Below, piece after piece: positions 5,824-42,963 of a stretch of DNA of 64,000 nucleotides. This DNA comes from Thermoanaerobaculia bacterium (GTDB taxonomy: Bacteria; Acidobacteriota; Thermoanaerobaculia; Multivoradales; J023), in assembly GCA_028066595.1 (NCBI GenBank), contig JALCBJ010000005.1:107933-171932 (forward strand), given 5' to 3'. Every line of letters begins with the position of its first letter. The stretch's first letter is position 1. The notes beneath the pieces are model-generated. The model was not told the origin of the DNA. It saw only the letters and a program-made list of their open reading frames with translations, and did not search any database. The position numbers were made by a program, and so were the translations under genes.

Positions 5824-7023
5824 CTATCGTCGCTCCAGCAGCAACGCCGTCCAGTCGTCCTCCAACTCCTCTTGCGTCGCTTCTCGAAGTTCCTCGAAGA
5901 GTCCGTCGAGCCAGGGACGCGATGGGTCGACTTCCGTTCTACGTACTACCTCCTCCAGAGCTTCATAGCCCAAGGGCTCTCCCTCGGACGCGGGAGCCTC
6001 GGGCAAACCATCGGTGAGCAGCAGAAGTCGTTCCCCCGGTTCCAGACGGGCGGTCACGATGCCGTAGCTCAACTCGGAGCGCAGGCCCAGAGGCAGTCTG
6101 GGTTGGGGCGCCACCAGCGAGCGTATTTCACCTCCGGGGCCGAGAACGTACGGGTCCGGTAAACCGGCGTTGGCCAGCTCGACTCGACCTTCCGGATCGA
6201 CCGCTGCCAGAGCTAGGGCAACGAACTCTCGCCGATCGAGAAAGCCAGCGAGCCGCCGGTTGAGATCGCCGAGTGTCTCGGTCACCGAGCGGTCCACGGC
6301 CACCAACGGAAGCACGGCTTTGACTGCGGCCATGATCAAGCTCGCCGCGACCCCTTTTCCTGCCACGTCGGCGACTGCGATGCGCAGGCTGCCGTCGGGT
6401 AGCGAGAAATAGTCGTAGAAGTCGCCGGCCACTCCGCGGGCTGCCAAGTTGCGCGCCGTCAGGCGGAAACGGTCGCCTCGGTGATCGGGCGCCGGTAGGA
6501 GGCGATGCTGGAGGCCCCGGGCGATCTCGAGCTCCTGAAGTGCCAGCTCTTGCCGCCGCTGTGCTTCCATCACTTGCTTCTCGGCGTCGTGCGACGTGCG
6601 CACCGCCAGGTACACATAGGCTGCAGCTGCCGCCTGCAGGTAGACCACCACACCGACGGCGAAGAACAACGCGGGTACGTGCGCCAACAGCTCCTGAGCG
6701 TCTCGCAAAGCGTTCGTGCGAGACAACAACCACGCCCAGCCGCCCGCCGCTAGCTGCCACAAGGAACTGGTCAACAGGGCGCCGATGAAGTGACTGGTGA
6801 TGGATTGCCACAGGTGGGTGCGGTCCAGCGGTGCTGATTGTGCCGGGAACCAGGCTGCCAAGCAGAGGAAGCCGAGCACCACCGTCAGTGGGACGGCGAG
6901 GGCCAGGGCGACCGGCCAGCGGACGTCGTTCTGCTGGACCACCGCGGCGAGGAGCAGCCCGGCCGGACCGAAGAGTGCTAGATAGGCGAGCAGTCGGCCC
7001 CGCTTCCCCAGGATCGGGTGCAT
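5824..7023 (-). CDS. Membrane-anchored PP2C/SpoIIE-type phosphatase
   Basis: A 399-residue protein with about five hydrophobic segments in residues 10-155, a short linking coiled-coil ('EKQVMEAQRRQELALQELEIARGLQ') and a SpoIIE-like PP2C domain from about residue 185 to the end. The phosphatase motifs 'GVAGDFYDYF', 'AVADVAGKGVAASL', 'LLLTDGLPEA' and a final 'DDWTALLLER' with metal-binding Asp residues are present. SpoIIE phosphatases typically dephosphorylate STAS anti-anti-sigma proteins and so release a sigma factor. The motif 'QHRLLPAP' before the domain is typical of sensor-linked members. No anti-sigma or STAS gene is adjacent; two further SpoIIE proteins lie at 36571 and 61231. Convergent with yjjX. 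Confidence 0.88.
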   Translation of the reverse strand: MHPILGKRGRLLAYLALFGPAGLLLAAVVQQNDVRWPVALALAVPLTVVLGFLCLAAWFPAQSAPLDRTHLWQSITSHFIGALLTSSLWQLAAGGWAWLLSRTNALRDAQELLAHVPALFFAVGVVVYLQAAAAAYVYLAVRTSHDAEKQVMEAQRRQELALQELEIARGLQHRLLPAPDHRGDRFRLTARNLAARGVAGDFYDYFSLPDGSLRIAVADVAGKGVAASLIMAAVKAVLPLVAVDRSVTETLGDLNRRLAGFLDRREFVALALAAVDPEGRVELANAGLPDPYVLGPGGEIRSLVAPQPRLPLGLRSELSYGIVTARLEPGERLLLLTDGLPEAPASEGEPLGYEALEEVVRRTEVDPSRPWLDGLFEELREATQEELEDDWTALLLERR

Positions 7024-7187
7024 CGATCAGGAAGCGGTTCGTACGCGGGTCCGCGGCGCGGAGCCGAGGCAACGGATCCGACTCCTGCGGCGCCTACACG
7101 GCGTGTCTCTGCGCCGTGGGTCGTTCGGAGCGCGGAGATGCTCTCTCTGCGTGAACGCCGGGCTGGGGGTTCGTGACACGCGGGCCC

Positions 7188-32986: not shown

Positions 32987-35399
32987 GGCGGTTGTCGCGC
33001 TGGGGCTCGTCTGGAGCGCCGCGTGCCAAGGGACGGAGGAGGACTTCGACTCCCCCGATCAGAGTGTTGCGTCCGTTGGGACCTTGCTCCACGGTCCGCC
33101 TGGTGCCGAGCCCTATCCGAAGGCTCTGGCCGAGCGGCTCTGGACTGCGTACGAGGCCCGCGGGCGCGACTACGAGCCGCGCACCGAGCATCTGCACGAG
33201 GACGGCCAGCCGGTCTACGTCAATCGACTGATCCTCGAGGACTCTCCCTACCTGATCCAGCACGCCCACAACCCGGTGGACTGGTACCCGTGGGGAGCCG
33301 AGGCTTTCGAGAAAGCCCAGCGCGAAGACAAACCGATCTTCTTGTCGATCGGCTATTCGACATGCCATTGGTGTCACGTGATGGAGCGGGAGAGCTTCGA
33401 CAACGAGGACGTGGCGCGACGACTGAACGAGGGTTTCGTCAGCATCAAGGTCGACCGCGAACAGCGTCCGGACGTGGACCAGGTTTATATGACCGCGGTG
33501 CATGTCCTCGGCCAGCGTGGCGGCTGGCCCATGTCGAGTTTCCTGACCCCCGACGGCCACTCGTTCTTTGGCGGTACCTACTATCCGCGGGAGAGCTTCG
33601 TCCAGCTGTTGGACGCTGTGGCAAATGCCTGGGACGTCGACCGGCAGCGTGTGCTGACCCAGGCGCATCGTATTTCCGACGTCGTCCGCGATGTCATGAC
33701 CGCGGCACAGGAGGCAGCGCAGGTCGATGAGGAGGTGTTGCGCGCCGCGGTGGACGAGATCCTGTCTCGGTTCGACCCCTACAAGGGAGGGTTCTCGCCG
33801 GCACCGAAGTTCCCACACGAGCCGGAGCTGCTCTTCCTTCTCGGGCGAGCTGCGCGCAGCGGCGACGAGCGCGTCCTAAACGCCGTTTCGGCCACCCTCG
33901 ACCACATGGCGCGGGGTGGCATCTACGATCAAGTCGGTGGCGGTTTCCATCGCTATTCGACGGATGCAGATTGGCTGGTGCCTCACTTCGAGAAGATGCT
34001 CTACAACCAGGCTCACCTGGCCCGTGCCTATCTCGAAGCATCTCGACTCGTCGGTGACCCATTCTTCGAGCGGGTAGCCCGTCAGACCCTGGACTACGTG
34101 TTGCGGGACATGACCTCGCCGCAGGGCGGGTTCTACTCGGCGACGGACGCGGACAGCGAGGGGCGGGAGGGAGAGTTCTTCGTCTGGACAGTCGGTGAGA
34201 TCCGGTCGACCCTGTCATCCGAGGAGGCCGACCTCGCTCTCCGGCTTTTCGGTGCCACCTCCTCCGGCAACTTCGAAGGCAAGAACATTCTTCATTTACC
34301 GGCTCCACTGAAACAGCAGGCGGAGGAGCTCGGACTCTCGTTGCAAGGGCTCCTCGTCCGCCTCGACCGCATTCGCCACCGCCTATACAACGCACGCGAG
34401 GAGCGGCCCCGTCCTCTGCGCGACGACAAGATCGTCACGGCGTGGAACGCCATGATGATCACGACCTTGGCCCGAGCGAGCACCTCATTGCGGGAGGATC
34501 GATATGCCGAGGCGGCGGTCGGTGCAGCGGAGTTCCTGTGGCGCCACAGCCGTCGACAGGACGGGCGATTGTGGCGCGCGGTGCTGCAGGGAACCGGCTC
34601 CGTGTCGGCAACTCAGAACGACCACGCGTACATGTTGGAAGCATTCGCGGCTCTCTACGACGCTACGGGTGACGAGCGATGGCTCGATCGGGCCGGCGAG
34701 CTGGCCGATTCGATGGTCGAAGGATTCTGGGATGACGACGATGGCGGGTTCTTCCTCGGTGAAGACGACTACGAGGGCAGGCTGCCGGCCCGACCGAAGA
34801 GCTCCACCGACGGAGCGATTCCATCGGGCAACGCAGTGGCTGCGCGCGCTTTCGCGCAACTCGCGGAGCGGACGGGTGACGCCGTGTTCCGGCAGCGGGC
34901 CGAAGCCACGCTCGCTGCATTCTCGGGCCGGGTCCGAGGCCAGCCGTCAGCCTTCTCCTACCTGTTGCTGGCAGCGGACGAGCTACTCCACGGTGCGGCG
35001 GGGCCGCTGGCCCATGGCGCGCGTGGCGCGGTGAAGGCCGAGGCCTCGGTCAGCGCTGGCGGACGCTTGCAGGTACGGGTCGAGCTTGCCGAAGGGTGGC
35101 ATCTGAACTCCGACCAGCCTCTGCAGCAGAACCTGATGCCGACCCGAATGGACGTCTCTGACGGCTGGCAACTCGCGAACGTGAACTACCCGGACGCCGA
35201 GACCGTGACGCTGGGTTTTCAGGAGGAGCCGCTCGCTGTCTTCCAAGGAAGTTTTACGATCCATGGCGTCGTCAAACGGGTCGAAGAGACCGGGCCGGTC
35301 GTCCCGGTGCGGCTCTCGGTGCAGGCTTGTGACGAACGCAAGTGCCTCCGGCCCGAGGAACTCACGCTAGAGATCCCGTGGCCGAAGGCAGGACACTAG
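32949..35399 (+). CDS. DUF255 thioredoxin-like lipoprotein fused to a DsbD-alpha domain
   Basis: An 816-residue protein from ATG 32949 (track ORF start 32739 is too early). A lipoprotein signal ([12 protein letters not shown]) comes first. A DUF255 thioredoxin-like domain follows ('[10 protein letters not shown]', '[21 protein letters not shown]', '[16 protein letters not shown]'), then an (alpha/alpha)6-barrel region with '[25 protein letters not shown]', as in YyaL/SSP411 proteins. The last 130 residues are not part of that family. They read '[20 protein letters not shown]' and end '[19 protein letters not shown]', the form of the DsbD N-terminal periplasmic domain with its Cys pair. Periplasmic thiol-disulphide exchange is the simplest reading. 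The gene overlaps the propeller gene by 38 nt, with no strong ribosome site. Confidence 0.85.
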
Positions 35400-35956
35400 G
35401 TATAAGCCTGCAACAGAAAGAAGATGACGACGCCCGTGACCGATACATAGAGCCAGGTCGGTAGGGTCCAGCGTGCGATCTTCTTGTGACTGGCGAAGCG
35501 CTTCCGGGAAGCGAAGAAGAGAGTCGAGAGGATCATCGGCAACATGACCACCGACAGCACGATGTGGCTGATGAGGAGGGAAAAATAGAACGGGCGAATC
35601 CAGCCCTGGCCCGGGAATGGAGTGTCGCCTTGGTAGTGGTGGTAGACGAGGTAGCTGGCGAGGAACAGGACGGAGAAACCGACGCCTGTCAGCATGAGCT
35701 TCGGATGTAGCTGACGCCGTCCTTGGCGAATCGCCCACCATCCGGCCACCATGAAGGCTGCCGCCAGCGTGTTGAACGTGGCGTTGACGGCCGGTAACGC
35801 AGAGATCCATCCAGCGTCCGACGCCCCCGGGGTCTTGAAGTAGATCCACCAGATGAGAAATGCCGCCGTCGCGGCGGATACTCCGAGGATGGAGCCCAGG
35901 GGTGTGCGGGCCTTGGGCTCGCCGCCCGAGCCCAAGGCTAGGGAGTCGTTGCTCAC
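35396..35956 (-). CDS. DUF420 membrane protein (cytochrome oxidase assembly-like)
   Basis: A 186-residue protein with five membrane helices, matching DUF420: '[35 protein letters not shown]' and the closing '[21 protein letters not shown]'. DUF420 proteins often cluster with cytochrome c oxidase genes (the CtaM-type role in haem oxidase assembly), but no oxidase gene is in this window. The start is GTG at 35956, 9 nt after the NiSOD stop, so both are in one operon. The stop shares the CTAG palindrome with the stop of the DUF255 gene on the other strand. Confidence 0.85.
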
Positions 35957-35965
35957 GGGGGAAGC

Positions 35966-36451
35966 TCAGCCGCCGTGCTCTTCACCCAGGTACGAATGCC
36001 TGAACTCGTGGATCAACTTCCGGAGGGCCTCGACGTGCGCGAGGTCTGCGGTCTGCTTGGCCTTCATGGCATGGACCATGATCTTGTGCAGCAGACTCAG
36101 CTCCCGGACGTATTTGGCCTGGGTAGCCTCGTCGGCTCCGTGCGCGGGCGGCTTGATGCGCTGCGCCATGAAGTAGTACGTCACGATCTCGGTCAGCTCA
36201 TCGGCGTGGTCTTCTTTGTTGTTCACCCAGCGGACGAGCTGATTCCAGTCCGGTGACTCGGCAGCGCCGATCTCGCCGATCTGCTTCATCGACTTCTCGA
36301 TGGTCTGGACGTGCTCGATCATCATGTCGATGCGCATGGGGTCGCCGTAGATTCCGCAAGGGATCTGGCAATGGGCAAAGGCGGCGGGCGCGAGCGTTGC
36401 GAGGACGAGAGTTGCGCTCAGCAGAAGGCTCAGGCGGCGGATGGAGCTCAT
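35966..36451 (-). CDS. sodN: Nickel superoxide dismutase, Sec-exported
   Basis: A 161-residue protein from ATG 36451, preceded by GGAGGA; the track ORF start (36532) is not supported. Residues 1-26 are a signal peptide (ending 'APAAFA') directly followed by 'HCQIPCGIYGD', the NiSOD hook with His1, Cys2 and Cys6 as Ni ligands and Asp/Tyr in the usual places. The remainder is the four-helix bundle ('MMIEHVQTIEKSMKQIGE', 'LSLLHKIMVHAMKAKQ'). NiSOD needs a free N-terminal His. In Streptomyces a leader is removed by a dedicated protease, but here signal peptidase cleavage after Ala-Phe-Ala would do it. It detoxifies superoxide in the periplasm and is followed by the DUF420 gene. Confidence 0.92.
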   Translation of the reverse strand: MSSIRRLSLLLSATLVLATLAPAAFAHCQIPCGIYGDPMRIDMMIEHVQTIEKSMKQIGEIGAAESPDWNQLVRWVNNKEDHADELTEIVTYYFMAQRIKPPAHGADEATQAKYVRELSLLHKIMVHAMKAKQTADLAHVEALRKLIHEFRHSYLGEEHGG

Positions 36452-36570
36452 GAATTCCTCCGGGGGTCTGGCTGGACGTGTGGAATGAGGTCGAGAGCTG
36501 GTGGCAGCAAGGCTCTGGGCGGACGTTATCACCGGCCCGCCTGTGGGACCCGGGCCAAGACCGGGAGGGC

Positions 36571-39141: not shown

Positions 39142-41019
39142 ATGACCACTCCCGCCGTTTCGGACTCTGTTTCCGAACGTCAGCACGAAAAGCTGCACGA
39201 TGTCGTGATTCGATTCGCTGGCGACAGCGGAGACGGCATGCAGCTGACCGGCACGCAGTTCACCAATACATCGGCTGTGCTCGGCAACGATCTTTCCACG
39301 TTGCCGGATTTCCCGGCGGAGATCCGCGCTCCTGCCGGCACGCTTCCGGGCGTCTCCGCGTTTCAGGTACGGATCGCCGACTACGACATCCATACGCCGG
39401 GGGACGTGCCCGACGTGCTGGTGGCGATGAATCCGGCGGCACTGAAGACCAACCTCGGGGACTTGGTGCCGAACGGCATCGTGATTCTCAACGTCAACGA
39501 GTTCAACAAGCGCAATCTGGGCAAGGCCCACTACGATGTGGATCCGAGGGAAGATGGCTCCCTCGAGGGGTTCCGGTTATTCGAAGTCGAGCTGACCCGG
39601 TTGACCTTGGAAGCGCTGCAGGAGCTCGAGCTCGACAATCGTAGCCGTGGGCGCTGCAAGAATTTCTTCGCCCTGGGCATGGTGTACTGGATGTACAGCC
39701 GCCCCCTCGACAACACGATCGAGTACCTCTACAAGAAGTTCGCCAAGAAGCCGATCTTGGCCGAGGCCAACGAGAAGGCACTACGAGCCGGCTACAACTA
39801 TTGCGACATCACCGGCGCTTTTCAGGTCCGCTACGAGGTGGAGCCAGCGCAGCTGGAGCCGGGCCTGTACCGGAACATCAACGGCAACTCGGCTCTGGCA
39901 CTGGGCTTCGTTGCCGCGAGCCGGCGAAGCGGCCTGCCGCTGTTCCTGGGCTCGTACCCGATCACCCCGGCTTCTTCGGTGTTGCACGAGCTCGCCAAGT
40001 ACAAGCAGTACAACGTCACGACATTTCAGGCAGAGGACGAGATCGCTGCAGTTTGCGCCGCCATCGGTGCATCGTTCGGTGGGTCGCTGGCGATCACGTC
40101 CACCAGCGGCCCGGGGATCGCTCTGAAGTCCGAGGGCATGAACCTGGCATTGATGACTGAGCTTCCGCTGGTGGTGATCAACGTGCAACGAGCCGGTCCT
40201 TCTACCGGCATGCCGACGAAGACCGAGCAAAGTGACCTCCTTCAGGTGATGTTTGGGCGCAACGGCGAGGCACCCATGCCTGTCATCGCACCGTCGTCGC
40301 CAGCCGACTGCTTCTTTGCGGCTCTCGAAGCGAGTCGGATGGCCGTGCATCACATGGTCCCCGTGATCCTGATCTCCGATGGCTACCTGGCGAACGGGTC
40401 GGAGCCGTGGAGGCTACCCTCGGTCGAGGATCTGCCCGATCTGACGGTGGACTTCTACGGCGGTGAGAACACCGATCCAGAGGTTGGATTCTTGCCCTAC
40501 CGTCGCAGTTCCGAAACCTTGGCTCGCCCTTGGGCGGTGCCGGGCACACCGGGTCTGGAGCACCGCATCGGGGGCCTGGAGAAGCAGGACGGTACGGGAA
40601 ACGTGTCCTACGACCCGGAGAATCACGAGCACATGACCCGGTTGCGTGCCGAGAAAGTGGAGCGCATCGCGAACACCATCCCTGAGCTGGAGGTGGTGGG
40701 CGACGAGGACGCTGAGCTATTGGTGGTGGGGTGGGGGTCGACTCTGGGCGCCATCACTGGCGCCGTGAACCTGGCCAGGCGCCAGGGATACAAGGTGGCG
40801 CGGACTCATTTCCGGCATATTCACCCACTACCGCGCAACACCGAGGAGGTGCTACGGCAGTTCCCGAACGTACTGATGCCCGAGCTGAACACGGGGCAGA
40901 TGGCCATGCTGCTGCGCTCCCACTTCCTGATCGACGTCCAAACCTATTCGAAAGTCCAAGGGAAGCCGTTTACCCGTAGCGAGATTCTCGATCGCATCGT
41001 CGAGATGCTGGAGACATGA
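39142..41019 (+). CDS. korA: 2-oxoglutarate:ferredoxin oxidoreductase, alpha (fused gamma-alpha) subunit
   Basis: A 625-residue subunit. The N-terminal gamma domain opens 'VIRFAGDSGDGMQLTGTQFTN' and 'PDFPAEIRAPAGTLPGVSAFQ'; the alpha domain carries 'LFLGSYPITPASSVLHELAKY', 'FQAEDEIAAVCAAIGASFGG', 'TSTSGPGIALKSEGMNLA' and 'QRAGPSTGMPTKTEQSDLL'. With KorB it forms a thiamine-diphosphate enzyme that decarboxylates 2-oxoglutarate (or a related 2-oxoacid) to the acyl-CoA and reduces ferredoxin. Fused gamma-alpha with a separate beta is the usual two-gene KorAB form, and the length fits. The stop is one nt before korB. A hairpin with a T-run lies upstream. Confidence 0.92.
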   Translation: MTTPAVSDSVSERQHEKLHDVVIRFAGDSGDGMQLTGTQFTNTSAVLGNDLSTLPDFPAEIRAPAGTLPGVSAFQVRIADYDIHTPGDVPDVLVAMNPAALKTNLGDLVPNGIVILNVNEFNKRNLGKAHYDVDPREDGSLEGFRLFEVELTRLTLEALQELELDNRSRGRCKNFFALGMVYWMYSRPLDNTIEYLYKKFAKKPILAEANEKALRAGYNYCDITGAFQVRYEVEPAQLEPGLYRNINGNSALALGFVAASRRSGLPLFLGSYPITPASSVLHELAKYKQYNVTTFQAEDEIAAVCAAIGASFGGSLAITSTSGPGIALKSEGMNLALMTELPLVVINVQRAGPSTGMPTKTEQSDLLQVMFGRNGEAPMPVIAPSSPADCFFAALEASRMAVHHMVPVILISDGYLANGSEPWRLPSVEDLPDLTVDFYGGENTDPEVGFLPYRRSSETLARPWAVPGTPGLEHRIGGLEKQDGTGNVSYDPENHEHMTRLRAEKVERIANTIPELEVVGDEDAELLVVGWGSTLGAITGAVNLARRQGYKVARTHFRHIHPLPRNTEEVLRQFPNVLMPELNTGQMAMLLRSHFLIDVQTYSKVQGKPFTRSEILDRIVEMLET

Positions 41020-41020
41020 G

Positions 41021-42028
41021 ATGACCGAGCAAGCGACACTCACCCGCAGCGATTTCCAATCCGATCAGGAAGTCCGTTGGTGTCCAGGTTGTGGCGACTA
41101 CGCCATCCTCAAGGCCGTGCAAGACGTGTTTCCGACGTTGGGGATACCGAAGGAGAAGTTCGTCATCGTCTCGGGTATCGGCTGCTCCAGCCGGTTCCCC
41201 TATTACATGGATACCTACGGATTTCACACGATTCACGGTCGTGCGCCTGCCATCGCCACAGGGCTCAAGGTCAGTCGACCGGATCTGGAAGTGTGGGTGG
41301 TCACGGGAGATGGTGACGCCCTGTCGATCGGTGGCAACCATCTGATCCACGCGCTGCGCCGCAACGTCGGGCTGAAGATCATGCTCTTCAACAACCGGAT
41401 CTACGGACTGACCAAAGGCCAGTACTCGCCCACGTCCGAGGTCGGAAAACGCACCTCGTCTACGCCGTATGGCTCGATCGACGCACCTTTCAATCCTTTG
41501 GCCATCGCGCTCGGTGCCGGGGCGAGTTTCGTGGCTCGCGGTGTCGACGTCTTCCTGCCACACCTCAAGTCGATCCTGCAGCGAGCCTCGGCGCATCAGG
41601 GCACCGCGTTCGTCGAGATCTACCAGAATTGCAACATCTTCAACGACGGCGCGTTTCAAGCAGTGACGTCGAAGGAGCATCGCAAGGCCGACGTGATCTA
41701 CCTAGAGCATGGGCAGCCGGTGACATTCGGCGACGATCGGGAGCTTGGAATTCAGATGGACGGTGCGCAGTTGAAGGTGGTGGAGTTGGGGGACGGCCTC
41801 ACCGCGGACGACTGTCTCGTCTGGGACGAGACCGATCGGAATCTGGCCTGGGCCATGGCCCAGATGGAGGCACCGGCGTTCCCGACTCCGATCGGGATTC
41901 TTCGCTCCGTCGAGCGCCCGTCTTTCGAGAGCCAGGTCGTTGCACAGATCCAACACGAAATCGACATCAAAGGAAGCGGCAGCCTCGACGAGCTGGTCCG
42001 TTCCGGCGATACTTGGACCGTCACCTGA
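41021..42028 (+). CDS. korB: 2-oxoglutarate:ferredoxin oxidoreductase, beta subunit
   Basis: A 335-residue subunit starting 1 nt after the korA stop. It has the Fe-S/TPP motifs 'RWCPGCGDYAILKAV' and 'GIGCSSRFPYYMDTYGFHTIHGR' and the thiamine-diphosphate block 'VTGDGDALSIGGNHLIHALRRNVGL' with 'NNRIYGLTKGQYSPTS'. It holds the TPP and one [4Fe-4S] cluster. It closes with a KorB-type C-terminal part ('DETDRNLAWAMAQMEAP'). Together with KorA it may run an oxidative or reductive TCA branch. The following 130 bp hold degenerate tandem repeats before lepB. Confidence 0.93.
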   Translation: MTEQATLTRSDFQSDQEVRWCPGCGDYAILKAVQDVFPTLGIPKEKFVIVSGIGCSSRFPYYMDTYGFHTIHGRAPAIATGLKVSRPDLEVWVVTGDGDALSIGGNHLIHALRRNVGLKIMLFNNRIYGLTKGQYSPTSEVGKRTSSTPYGSIDAPFNPLAIALGAGASFVARGVDVFLPHLKSILQRASAHQGTAFVEIYQNCNIFNDGAFQAVTSKEHRKADVIYLEHGQPVTFGDDRELGIQMDGAQLKVVELGDGLTADDCLVWDETDRNLAWAMAQMEAPAFPTPIGILRSVERPSFESQVVAQIQHEIDIKGSGSLDELVRSGDTWTVT

Positions 42029-42159: not shown

Positions 42160-42963
42160 ATGACTGACCACAGCGAACGTCACGACAGCTACGCCCCGGA
42201 GGACGCCGCGGGATCGAGCATCGCGGAGCCACCTCGGGCCCGTGACGGTGCCGAGTCCGGAACGGTGGAAGTCGAGGGCTGGAAGGGCAAGAGCCATGCC
42301 TTCTGGCGCGAGTGGATCAAGCCTCTCCTGATCATCGGGCTCGTGATGTTCTCGTTTCGCTCGGCCGTCGCCGATTGGAACGATGTACCCACCGGTTCCA
42401 TGAAGCCGACCATTCTCGAAGGCGATCGCATCTTCATCAACAAGATTGCCTACGACTTGAAGGTGCCGTTTACGACGATTCGGGTCGCGGAGTGGGATGA
42501 TCCGGAGTGGGGTGACGTGGTGGTATTGCTGTCACCGGAAGACGGCAAGCGGTTGGTGAAGCGGGTAGTGGGACTCCCGGGCGATACGGTCGAGATCGAC
42601 GGGCCGTTCCTTTATCGCAACGGTGAGCGGGCCGCGTACGACATCCTCGATCCGTACTATGTGAACCAGATCGACAGTCACGAGCAGGCTCGCTATCACT
42701 TTGCAGCAGAGGAGCTGGACGGTTTACGACATCCCATCATGACCCGCGTCGGACGGCTGGATTCGCCGACCGGCCCGTTCGTCATTCCTGACGATCATTT
42801 CTTCGTGATGGGCGACAACCGCGGCAACTCTCGTGATTCCCGCTATTTCGGCACCGTCCACCGCGACGAGATCTTGGGTCGCGCCACAGCCGTTGCTCTG
42901 TCGCTGGACCGAGAGAACTACTTCAAGCCTCGCTGGCACCGCTTCTTCACGAAGCTTCCCTGA
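42160..42963 (+). CDS. lepB: Signal peptidase I
   Basis: A 267-residue S26 peptidase. An N-terminal cytoplasmic extension of about 50 residues is followed by one membrane helix ('PLLIIGLVMFSFRSAVA'). The catalytic Ser80 lies in 'DVPTGSMKPTILEGDR' and the general-base Lys134 in 'RLVKRVVGLPGDTVEI'. The conserved end box is 'FFVMGDNRGNSRDSRYFG'. It cleaves signal peptides of exported proteins on the outer face of the inner membrane. The many secreted proteins and lipoproteins in this window are its likely clients (lipoproteins use Lsp instead). The stop lies just before the converging kinase gene, 12 nt away. Confidence 0.95.
   Translation: MTDHSERHDSYAPEDAAGSSIAEPPRARDGAESGTVEVEGWKGKSHAFWREWIKPLLIIGLVMFSFRSAVADWNDVPTGSMKPTILEGDRIFINKIAYDLKVPFTTIRVAEWDDPEWGDVVVLLSPEDGKRLVKRVVGLPGDTVEIDGPFLYRNGERAAYDILDPYYVNQIDSHEQARYHFAAEELDGLRHPIMTRVGRLDSPTGPFVIPDDHFFVMGDNRGNSRDSRYFGTVHRDEILGRATAVALSLDRENYFKPRWHRFFTKLP

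Follow-up and report, generated by a model that had tools for sequence, protein, structure and literature searches.

The window analysed here, a 64,000-nucleotide stretch of DNA from a Thermoanaerobaculia bacterium, contains a gene that very probably, judging from its sequence, encodes a nickel superoxide dismutase (NiSOD) of a distinct exported subfamily. The protein would be exported by the Sec route, have its His1 freed by signal peptidase I, and both load nickel and act as a superoxide dismutase in the periplasm. The predicted export feature is that of a large clade and extends beyond the window gene alone. With somewhat more reserve, we consider it likely that this large exported subfamily is separate from the SodX-dependent cytoplasmic one, that signal peptidase I replaces SodX in it, that nickel loading takes place outside the cytoplasm, with possible help from the His-rich C-terminal tails, and that the split of the family brought a joint change of processing route and compartment.

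Identity and fold of the window gene

The sodN-like gene is located at 35966..36451 on the (-) strand and encodes a precursor of 161 aa. The open reading frame is real; its start codon is the ATG at 36451, and a Shine-Dalgarno-like GGAGG (36457..36461, (-)) is located 5 bases before it. When compared with the Pfam Sod_Ni model (PF09055) the protein scored 106 bits (cut-off 25, E 2.4e-30), and it was the only PF09055 gene in the window genome (7.5 Mb, 95% complete). With the NCBIfam sodN equivalog model TIGR02753 the score was 43 bits, which is below the cut-off of 90 and indicated that the protein is a divergent member of the family. The NiSOD identity given in the first-pass annotation was thus confirmed, as was its claim that a signal peptide ends exactly before HCQIPCGIY. 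The precursor reads MSSIRRLSLLLSATLVLATLAPAAFA followed by HCQIPCGIYGDPMR, where the first part is the putative 26-aa signal peptide (36374..36451, (-)) and the second is the mature part beginning with HCQIPCGIY. The leader has a positive n-region and a hydrophobic core and then A-F-A immediately before His1 (...LAPAAFA followed by HCQIPCGIY), and the predicted signal peptidase I site lies between A-F-A and H. The signal peptide call rests on the n-region, the hydrophobic core and the (-3,-1) site, together with the comparison with 99 other leaders.

The mature domain (135 aa, 35969..36373, (-)) was modelled with AF2, leaving the row of a plasmid sequence out of the alignment for the final model, and the model obtained was a four-helix bundle with a mean pLDDT of 93.5 and values of about 63 for hook residues 1-10. 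Given that a sequence search of the PDB with the window NiSOD (phmmer) gave only marginal matches (E 0.45 and worse), a fold search with the AF2 model (Foldseek) was used instead. The top 14 matches were all NiSOD crystal structures, with TM-scores of up to 0.81 by target length and a Foldseek probability of 1.00, at E-values of only about 0.01. The nickel hook HCQIPCGIY (36347..36373, (-)), with the ligand residues His1, Cys2 and Cys6, conforms to the pattern H1-C2-x-x-P-C6-G-x-Y9, and H1, C2, P5 and C6 were invariant in a 59-row alignment in which Tyr9 was either kept or replaced by Phe. In NiSOD the nickel ligands are the amine and imidazole of His1, the amide and thiolate of Cys2 and the thiolate of Cys6. 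Since nickel is bound through the His1 amine, a free His N-terminus is required.

The Streptomyces NiSOD (SodN; PDB 1T6U, 1Q0D) resembles the window protein in its PF09055 membership, its four-helix bundle and the hook residues His1, Cys2, Cys6 and Tyr9. However, the sequence similarity between the two is very low (phmmer E 0.45), and the Streptomyces enzyme has Asp3 and a short polar propeptide, whereas the window protein has Gln3 and a hydrophobic signal peptide and is encoded in a genome without sodX.

Leaders and predicted cut sites in two types of NiSOD

Relatives were collected from 23 loci on genome contigs, three phylum-wide PF09055 surveys and one Fusobacteriota plasmid. The surveys gave 15/297 positive genomes for the phylum of the window, 46/294 for the phylum of a Planctomycetota genome and 38/241 for the phylum of a Kiritimatiellales genome. 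Four matches that were broken off at contig ends were left out, and the resulting set of 119 distinct NiSODs with an intact hook was split by leader hydropathy and hook residues into 100 proteins of a leader type and 19 of a propeptide type. The leader type has a hydrophobic leader with a median length of 24 and the hook HC[QE][IV]PCGI[YF]xD, and the propeptide type has a short polar leader and the hook HCDxPCG[VI]YDP. Hook position 3 was Q or E in 99/100 leader-type proteins and D in 19/19 propeptide-type proteins. In a maximum-likelihood tree the leader type, with the exception of a single protein (L043), formed one side of a long branch with a support of 99/99. Its members include Acidobacteriota, Planctomycetota, Kiritimatiellota, Sumerlaeota, Armatimonadota and Omnitrophota, as well as an Ozemobacteraceae bacterium and the Fusobacteriota plasmid. 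Altogether the roughly 100 leader-type relatives appear to span at least seven bacterial phyla, and nearly all of them share a predicted signal that ends before His1.

L043 (1510-1905, (+)) is a very divergent third type of NiSOD with the hook HCSLPCGYYDW and, like the others, a hydrophobic leader, and it may represent a second, independent export lineage. In another locus (L160, 48-1403, (-)) the leader-type NiSOD is extended at its C-terminus by about 300 aa.

The (-3,-1) rule was satisfied exactly at His1 in 94/100 leader-type homologues. With the cut shifted one residue upstream it was satisfied in 11/100, at the other upstream positions tested in at most 43/100, and one to eight residues downstream in 0/100. 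Position -1 was A, S or G in 94/100 and position -3 was A, V, L, I, S or G in 98/100, with position -2 being variable. A good site before His1 was absent from 5-6 of the 100 leaders (L152, L153, L156, L157, L175 and, marginally, L086). The leaders of L152, L156 and L157, which belong to one subclade, and of L153 have either a poor site or a stretch of several residues separating the probable cut from His1, and L175 has a Pro at -1. In these five cases another step may be needed, the start may be mis-assigned or the proteins may be non-functional.

The two types also differed at the other end of the protein. A C-terminal His-rich tail, defined as at least two His within the last 12 residues, was found in 68/98 leader-type and 0/19 propeptide-type proteins. 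Such tails (for example GHGHDHDHK; leader-type examples are L077, 1450-1875, and L036, 1507-1914, the latter ending in GEHGHHH) possibly serve nickel capture. The tail of the window protein is only weakly His-rich (FRHSYLGEEHGG).

SodX, signal peptidase and the cellular compartment

The first-pass annotation had set a genome search for sodX as a check, and no gene in the window genome (7.5 Mb, 95% complete) reached the TIGR02754 cut-off of 63.25. The best TIGR02754 match in this whole-genome search was lepB, at 23.5 bits. The claim that no sodX gene is nearby is also true in the strict sense, as the nearest S26-family gene, 5.7 kb from sodN, is an ordinary signal peptidase I gene (lepB, 42160..42963, (+)) that scored 150 bits with TIGR02227 (cut-off 47) and 39.5 bits with TIGR02754. 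The idea that this gene is a disguised SodX was rejected, since its score with the signal peptidase I model exceeds the cut-off by about 100 bits and since in the nearest relative no such gene adjoins sodN, the S26 matches being on contigs C10 and C500 and sodN on C342. The lepB product is the probable maturation protease of the window NiSOD, and the closeness of the two genes is probably fortuitous. A second lepB of the window genome is located on another contig.

A sodX gene over the cut-off was present in 0/96 genomes that have only the leader type vs. 13/19 propeptide-type genomes (Fisher's exact test, p = 6e-13). This result supports the suggestion in the first-pass annotation that signal peptidase could replace the special SodX-type protease. 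When matches below the cut-off were included, an S26 gene was found 63-422 bp from 17/19 propeptide genes, and in the remaining two (G421 and G247) sodN is near a contig end. In the three genomes that carry both types (G419, G488 and G510) a SodX-like S26 gene adjoins the propeptide copy, scoring below the cut-off in G419. No S26 gene was found beside the leader-type genes, the nearest one being the window lepB. The single-contig genome of the leader-type L043 (G010) had no sodX over the cut-off. Since all leader-type proteins but L043 fall into one clade, the association with sodX amounts in essence to a single evolutionary contrast, to which the genomes with both types and L043 add some independence.

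The other superoxide dismutases of the genomes were examined as a test of compartment that is independent of the leader sequence, apart from the sorting of the two types. A cytoplasmic propeptide type could replace Fe/Mn-SOD, whereas an exported leader type could not. Among the Planctomycetota, Fe/Mn-SOD (PF02777) was present in 185/248 (75%) genomes without NiSOD, 22/31 leader-only genomes and 0/11 propeptide-only genomes (propeptide vs. no NiSOD, p = 6e-7; leader vs. no NiSOD, p = 0.67; kinship and completeness uncorrected), and propeptide-type NiSOD and Fe/Mn-SOD were mutually exclusive in this phylum (G337, G346, G363, G371 and others). The corresponding numbers for SodC (PF00080), likewise uncorrected for kinship and completeness, were 47/248, 3/31 and 5/11, and SodC was over-represented in propeptide-type genomes (p = 0.047). 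In the window genome there is a single Fe/Mn-SOD, which starts with MPHTLPDLPYAFDALEPH and is leaderless, and no SodC (PF00080). As indirect evidence, these complements fit the two predicted compartments. Replacement of SodC by the leader-type NiSOD was also considered and was weakly supported, as the avoidance of SodC by leader-type genomes was not significant when compared with the Planctomycetota baseline (3/31 vs. 47/248, p = 0.32).

For the window protein we infer the following course of events. The precursor would pass unfolded through Sec, and signal peptidase I would cleave it between Ala(-1) and His1, freeing the His N-terminus with no further factor, so that general export processing would take the place of SodX. 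The mature protein would then fold, oligomerise and load nickel in the periplasm, where it would remove superoxide in the way that SodC does in other bacteria. Removal of superoxide outside the cytoplasm would be a role in common with SodC, an exported Cu/Zn-SOD that differs in having an unrelated fold and other metals and in being absent from the window genome.

In marine cyanobacteria NiSOD is cytoplasmic and its preprotein is cleaved by SodX, and the absence of sodX has been read as a possible lack of function (PMC8346466). The window protein is comparable to this SodN-SodX system in that activity requires cleavage of the precursor in front of His1, but its genome is without SodX and its leader is a predicted signal peptide. 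Algal ubiquitin-NiSOD fusions (PMC6332867) are similar in that cutting off an N-terminal extension may stand in for the SodX step, which is our reading of a paper where His1 is not discussed; they differ in being eukaryotic and in carrying ubiquitin as the leader, with no signal for export. According to a 2025 study (PMC12537917, Table 1), the planctomycete Roseiconus lacunae has a NiSOD (WP_230780104.1) whose signal peptide ends before His, and this protein almost certainly belongs to the same exported subfamily. The study describes how a planctomycete NiSOD signal peptide ending in H was used as bait for other His1 metalloproteins, by which many NiSODs were retrieved, and its accessible part contains no discussion of NiSOD maturation, SodX or location. 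No description of an exported NiSOD class was found in the literature searched; subscription papers, e.g. Dupont et al. 2008, may mention one.

If the exported subfamily is real, the inference from an absent sodX to an unusable NiSOD (PMC8346466) is wrong for a large bacterial group. The absence of sodX together with a signal peptide would then point to another maturation route and another compartment, with the leader type telling which, and active NiSOD would be obtainable in an ordinary host through export alone. It would also pose a testable question, namely by what means nickel reaches a two-thiolate site in a compartment with competing copper and disulfide formation.

Alternative readings and gene neighbourhoods

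Besides the exceptional leaders, the largely single evolutionary contrast and the non-significant avoidance of SodC mentioned above, the absence of Asp3 from the leader type counts against an exported NiSOD. A two-thiolate nickel site would also be poorly suited to a periplasm that is oxidising and exposed to copper. Alternatively, the protein might be exported and cut before His1 and yet be mainly a periplasmic copper or nickel binder, like other secreted His1 proteins, and an inefficient superoxide dismutase. The substitution of Q or E for the Asp3 of the characterised enzymes, the score below the TIGR02753 cut-off and the His-rich tails seen only among leader-type proteins are in line with this possibility, and PMC12537917 describes secreted His1 proteins as binding nickel or copper without notable catalysis. 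Nevertheless, we regard it as unlikely, given the invariant His1, Cys2, Pro5 and Cys6, the retention of Tyr9 or its replacement by Phe, the match to the NiSOD fold and the oxidative-stress genes among some of the neighbours. Furthermore, a two-thiolate redox hook would be superfluous for a plain metal chaperone.

The route across the membrane was named in the first-pass annotation as Sec. This part of the claim agrees with the strongly hydrophobic cores of the leaders, which are more typical of Sec, and with the finding of R-R near the start in only 5/100 leaders and not in the nearest relative L036, but the window leader itself has R-R at residues 5-6. Together with S-R-R-G-M-L in L008, this pair could suggest export by Tat, in which the protein would cross at least partly folded and then be cut by signal peptidase; we consider this quite improbable, and the hook would in any case be unable to bind nickel before cleavage. 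It is also very improbable that the initial cut by signal peptidase is followed by trimming to His1, done by a second protease or by a SodX analogue that escaped detection, or that the leader stays as an anchor. Such schemes would suit the leaders of L152, L153, L156 and L157, which extend several residues past the likely site with no A-X-A before His1, but the site directly before His1 in 94/100 leaders, the window leader included, makes trimming unnecessary, and beside the leader-type genes there is no S26 gene that could encode the second protease. In a lipobox the Cys has to be preceded by Gly, Ala or Ser. The Cys at +2 after a hydrophobic leader might be taken for that of a lipoprotein, cut by signal peptidase II before Cys2 and held by a lipid anchor, but the residue preceding Cys2 was His in 119/119 NiSODs and a lipid on Cys2 would abolish the nickel hook, and this reading was rejected as having next to no probability. 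Sec export followed by a signal peptidase I cut at His1 is the reading that we prefer.

No neighbouring gene was conserved across the whole leader-type clade, and only small recurring sets were observed. Close-packed neighbours on the same strand as some leader-type genes encode rubrerythrin and thiol peroxidase, and 2-oxoacid:ferredoxin oxidoreductase genes also occur among the same-strand neighbours; these genes are in keeping with a defence against oxygen in anaerobic or micro-aerobic organisms. In the window a gene for a DUF420 membrane protein (35396..35956, (-); PF04238, E 5.9e-44) is located directly downstream of sodN with a 9-base gap. A DUF420 gene adjoins the leader-type NiSOD in three Acidobacteriota (the window, L009 at 6558-7142 and L184 at 2038-2574), downstream of sodN in two of the three genomes and upstream in one. 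In three loci from Planctomycetota (L008, L018 and L028) the genes immediately after sodN encode 2-oxoacid:ferredoxin oxidoreductase, and the window has a korAB pair (39142-42028, (+)) about 3 kb from sodN on the opposite strand. In three further loci (L012, L014 and L020) sodN is followed by a peroxiredoxin (thiol peroxidase-like) gene and an FprA-like flavodiiron gene, an arrangement that resembles an oxygen-defence operon in Sedimentisphaerales.
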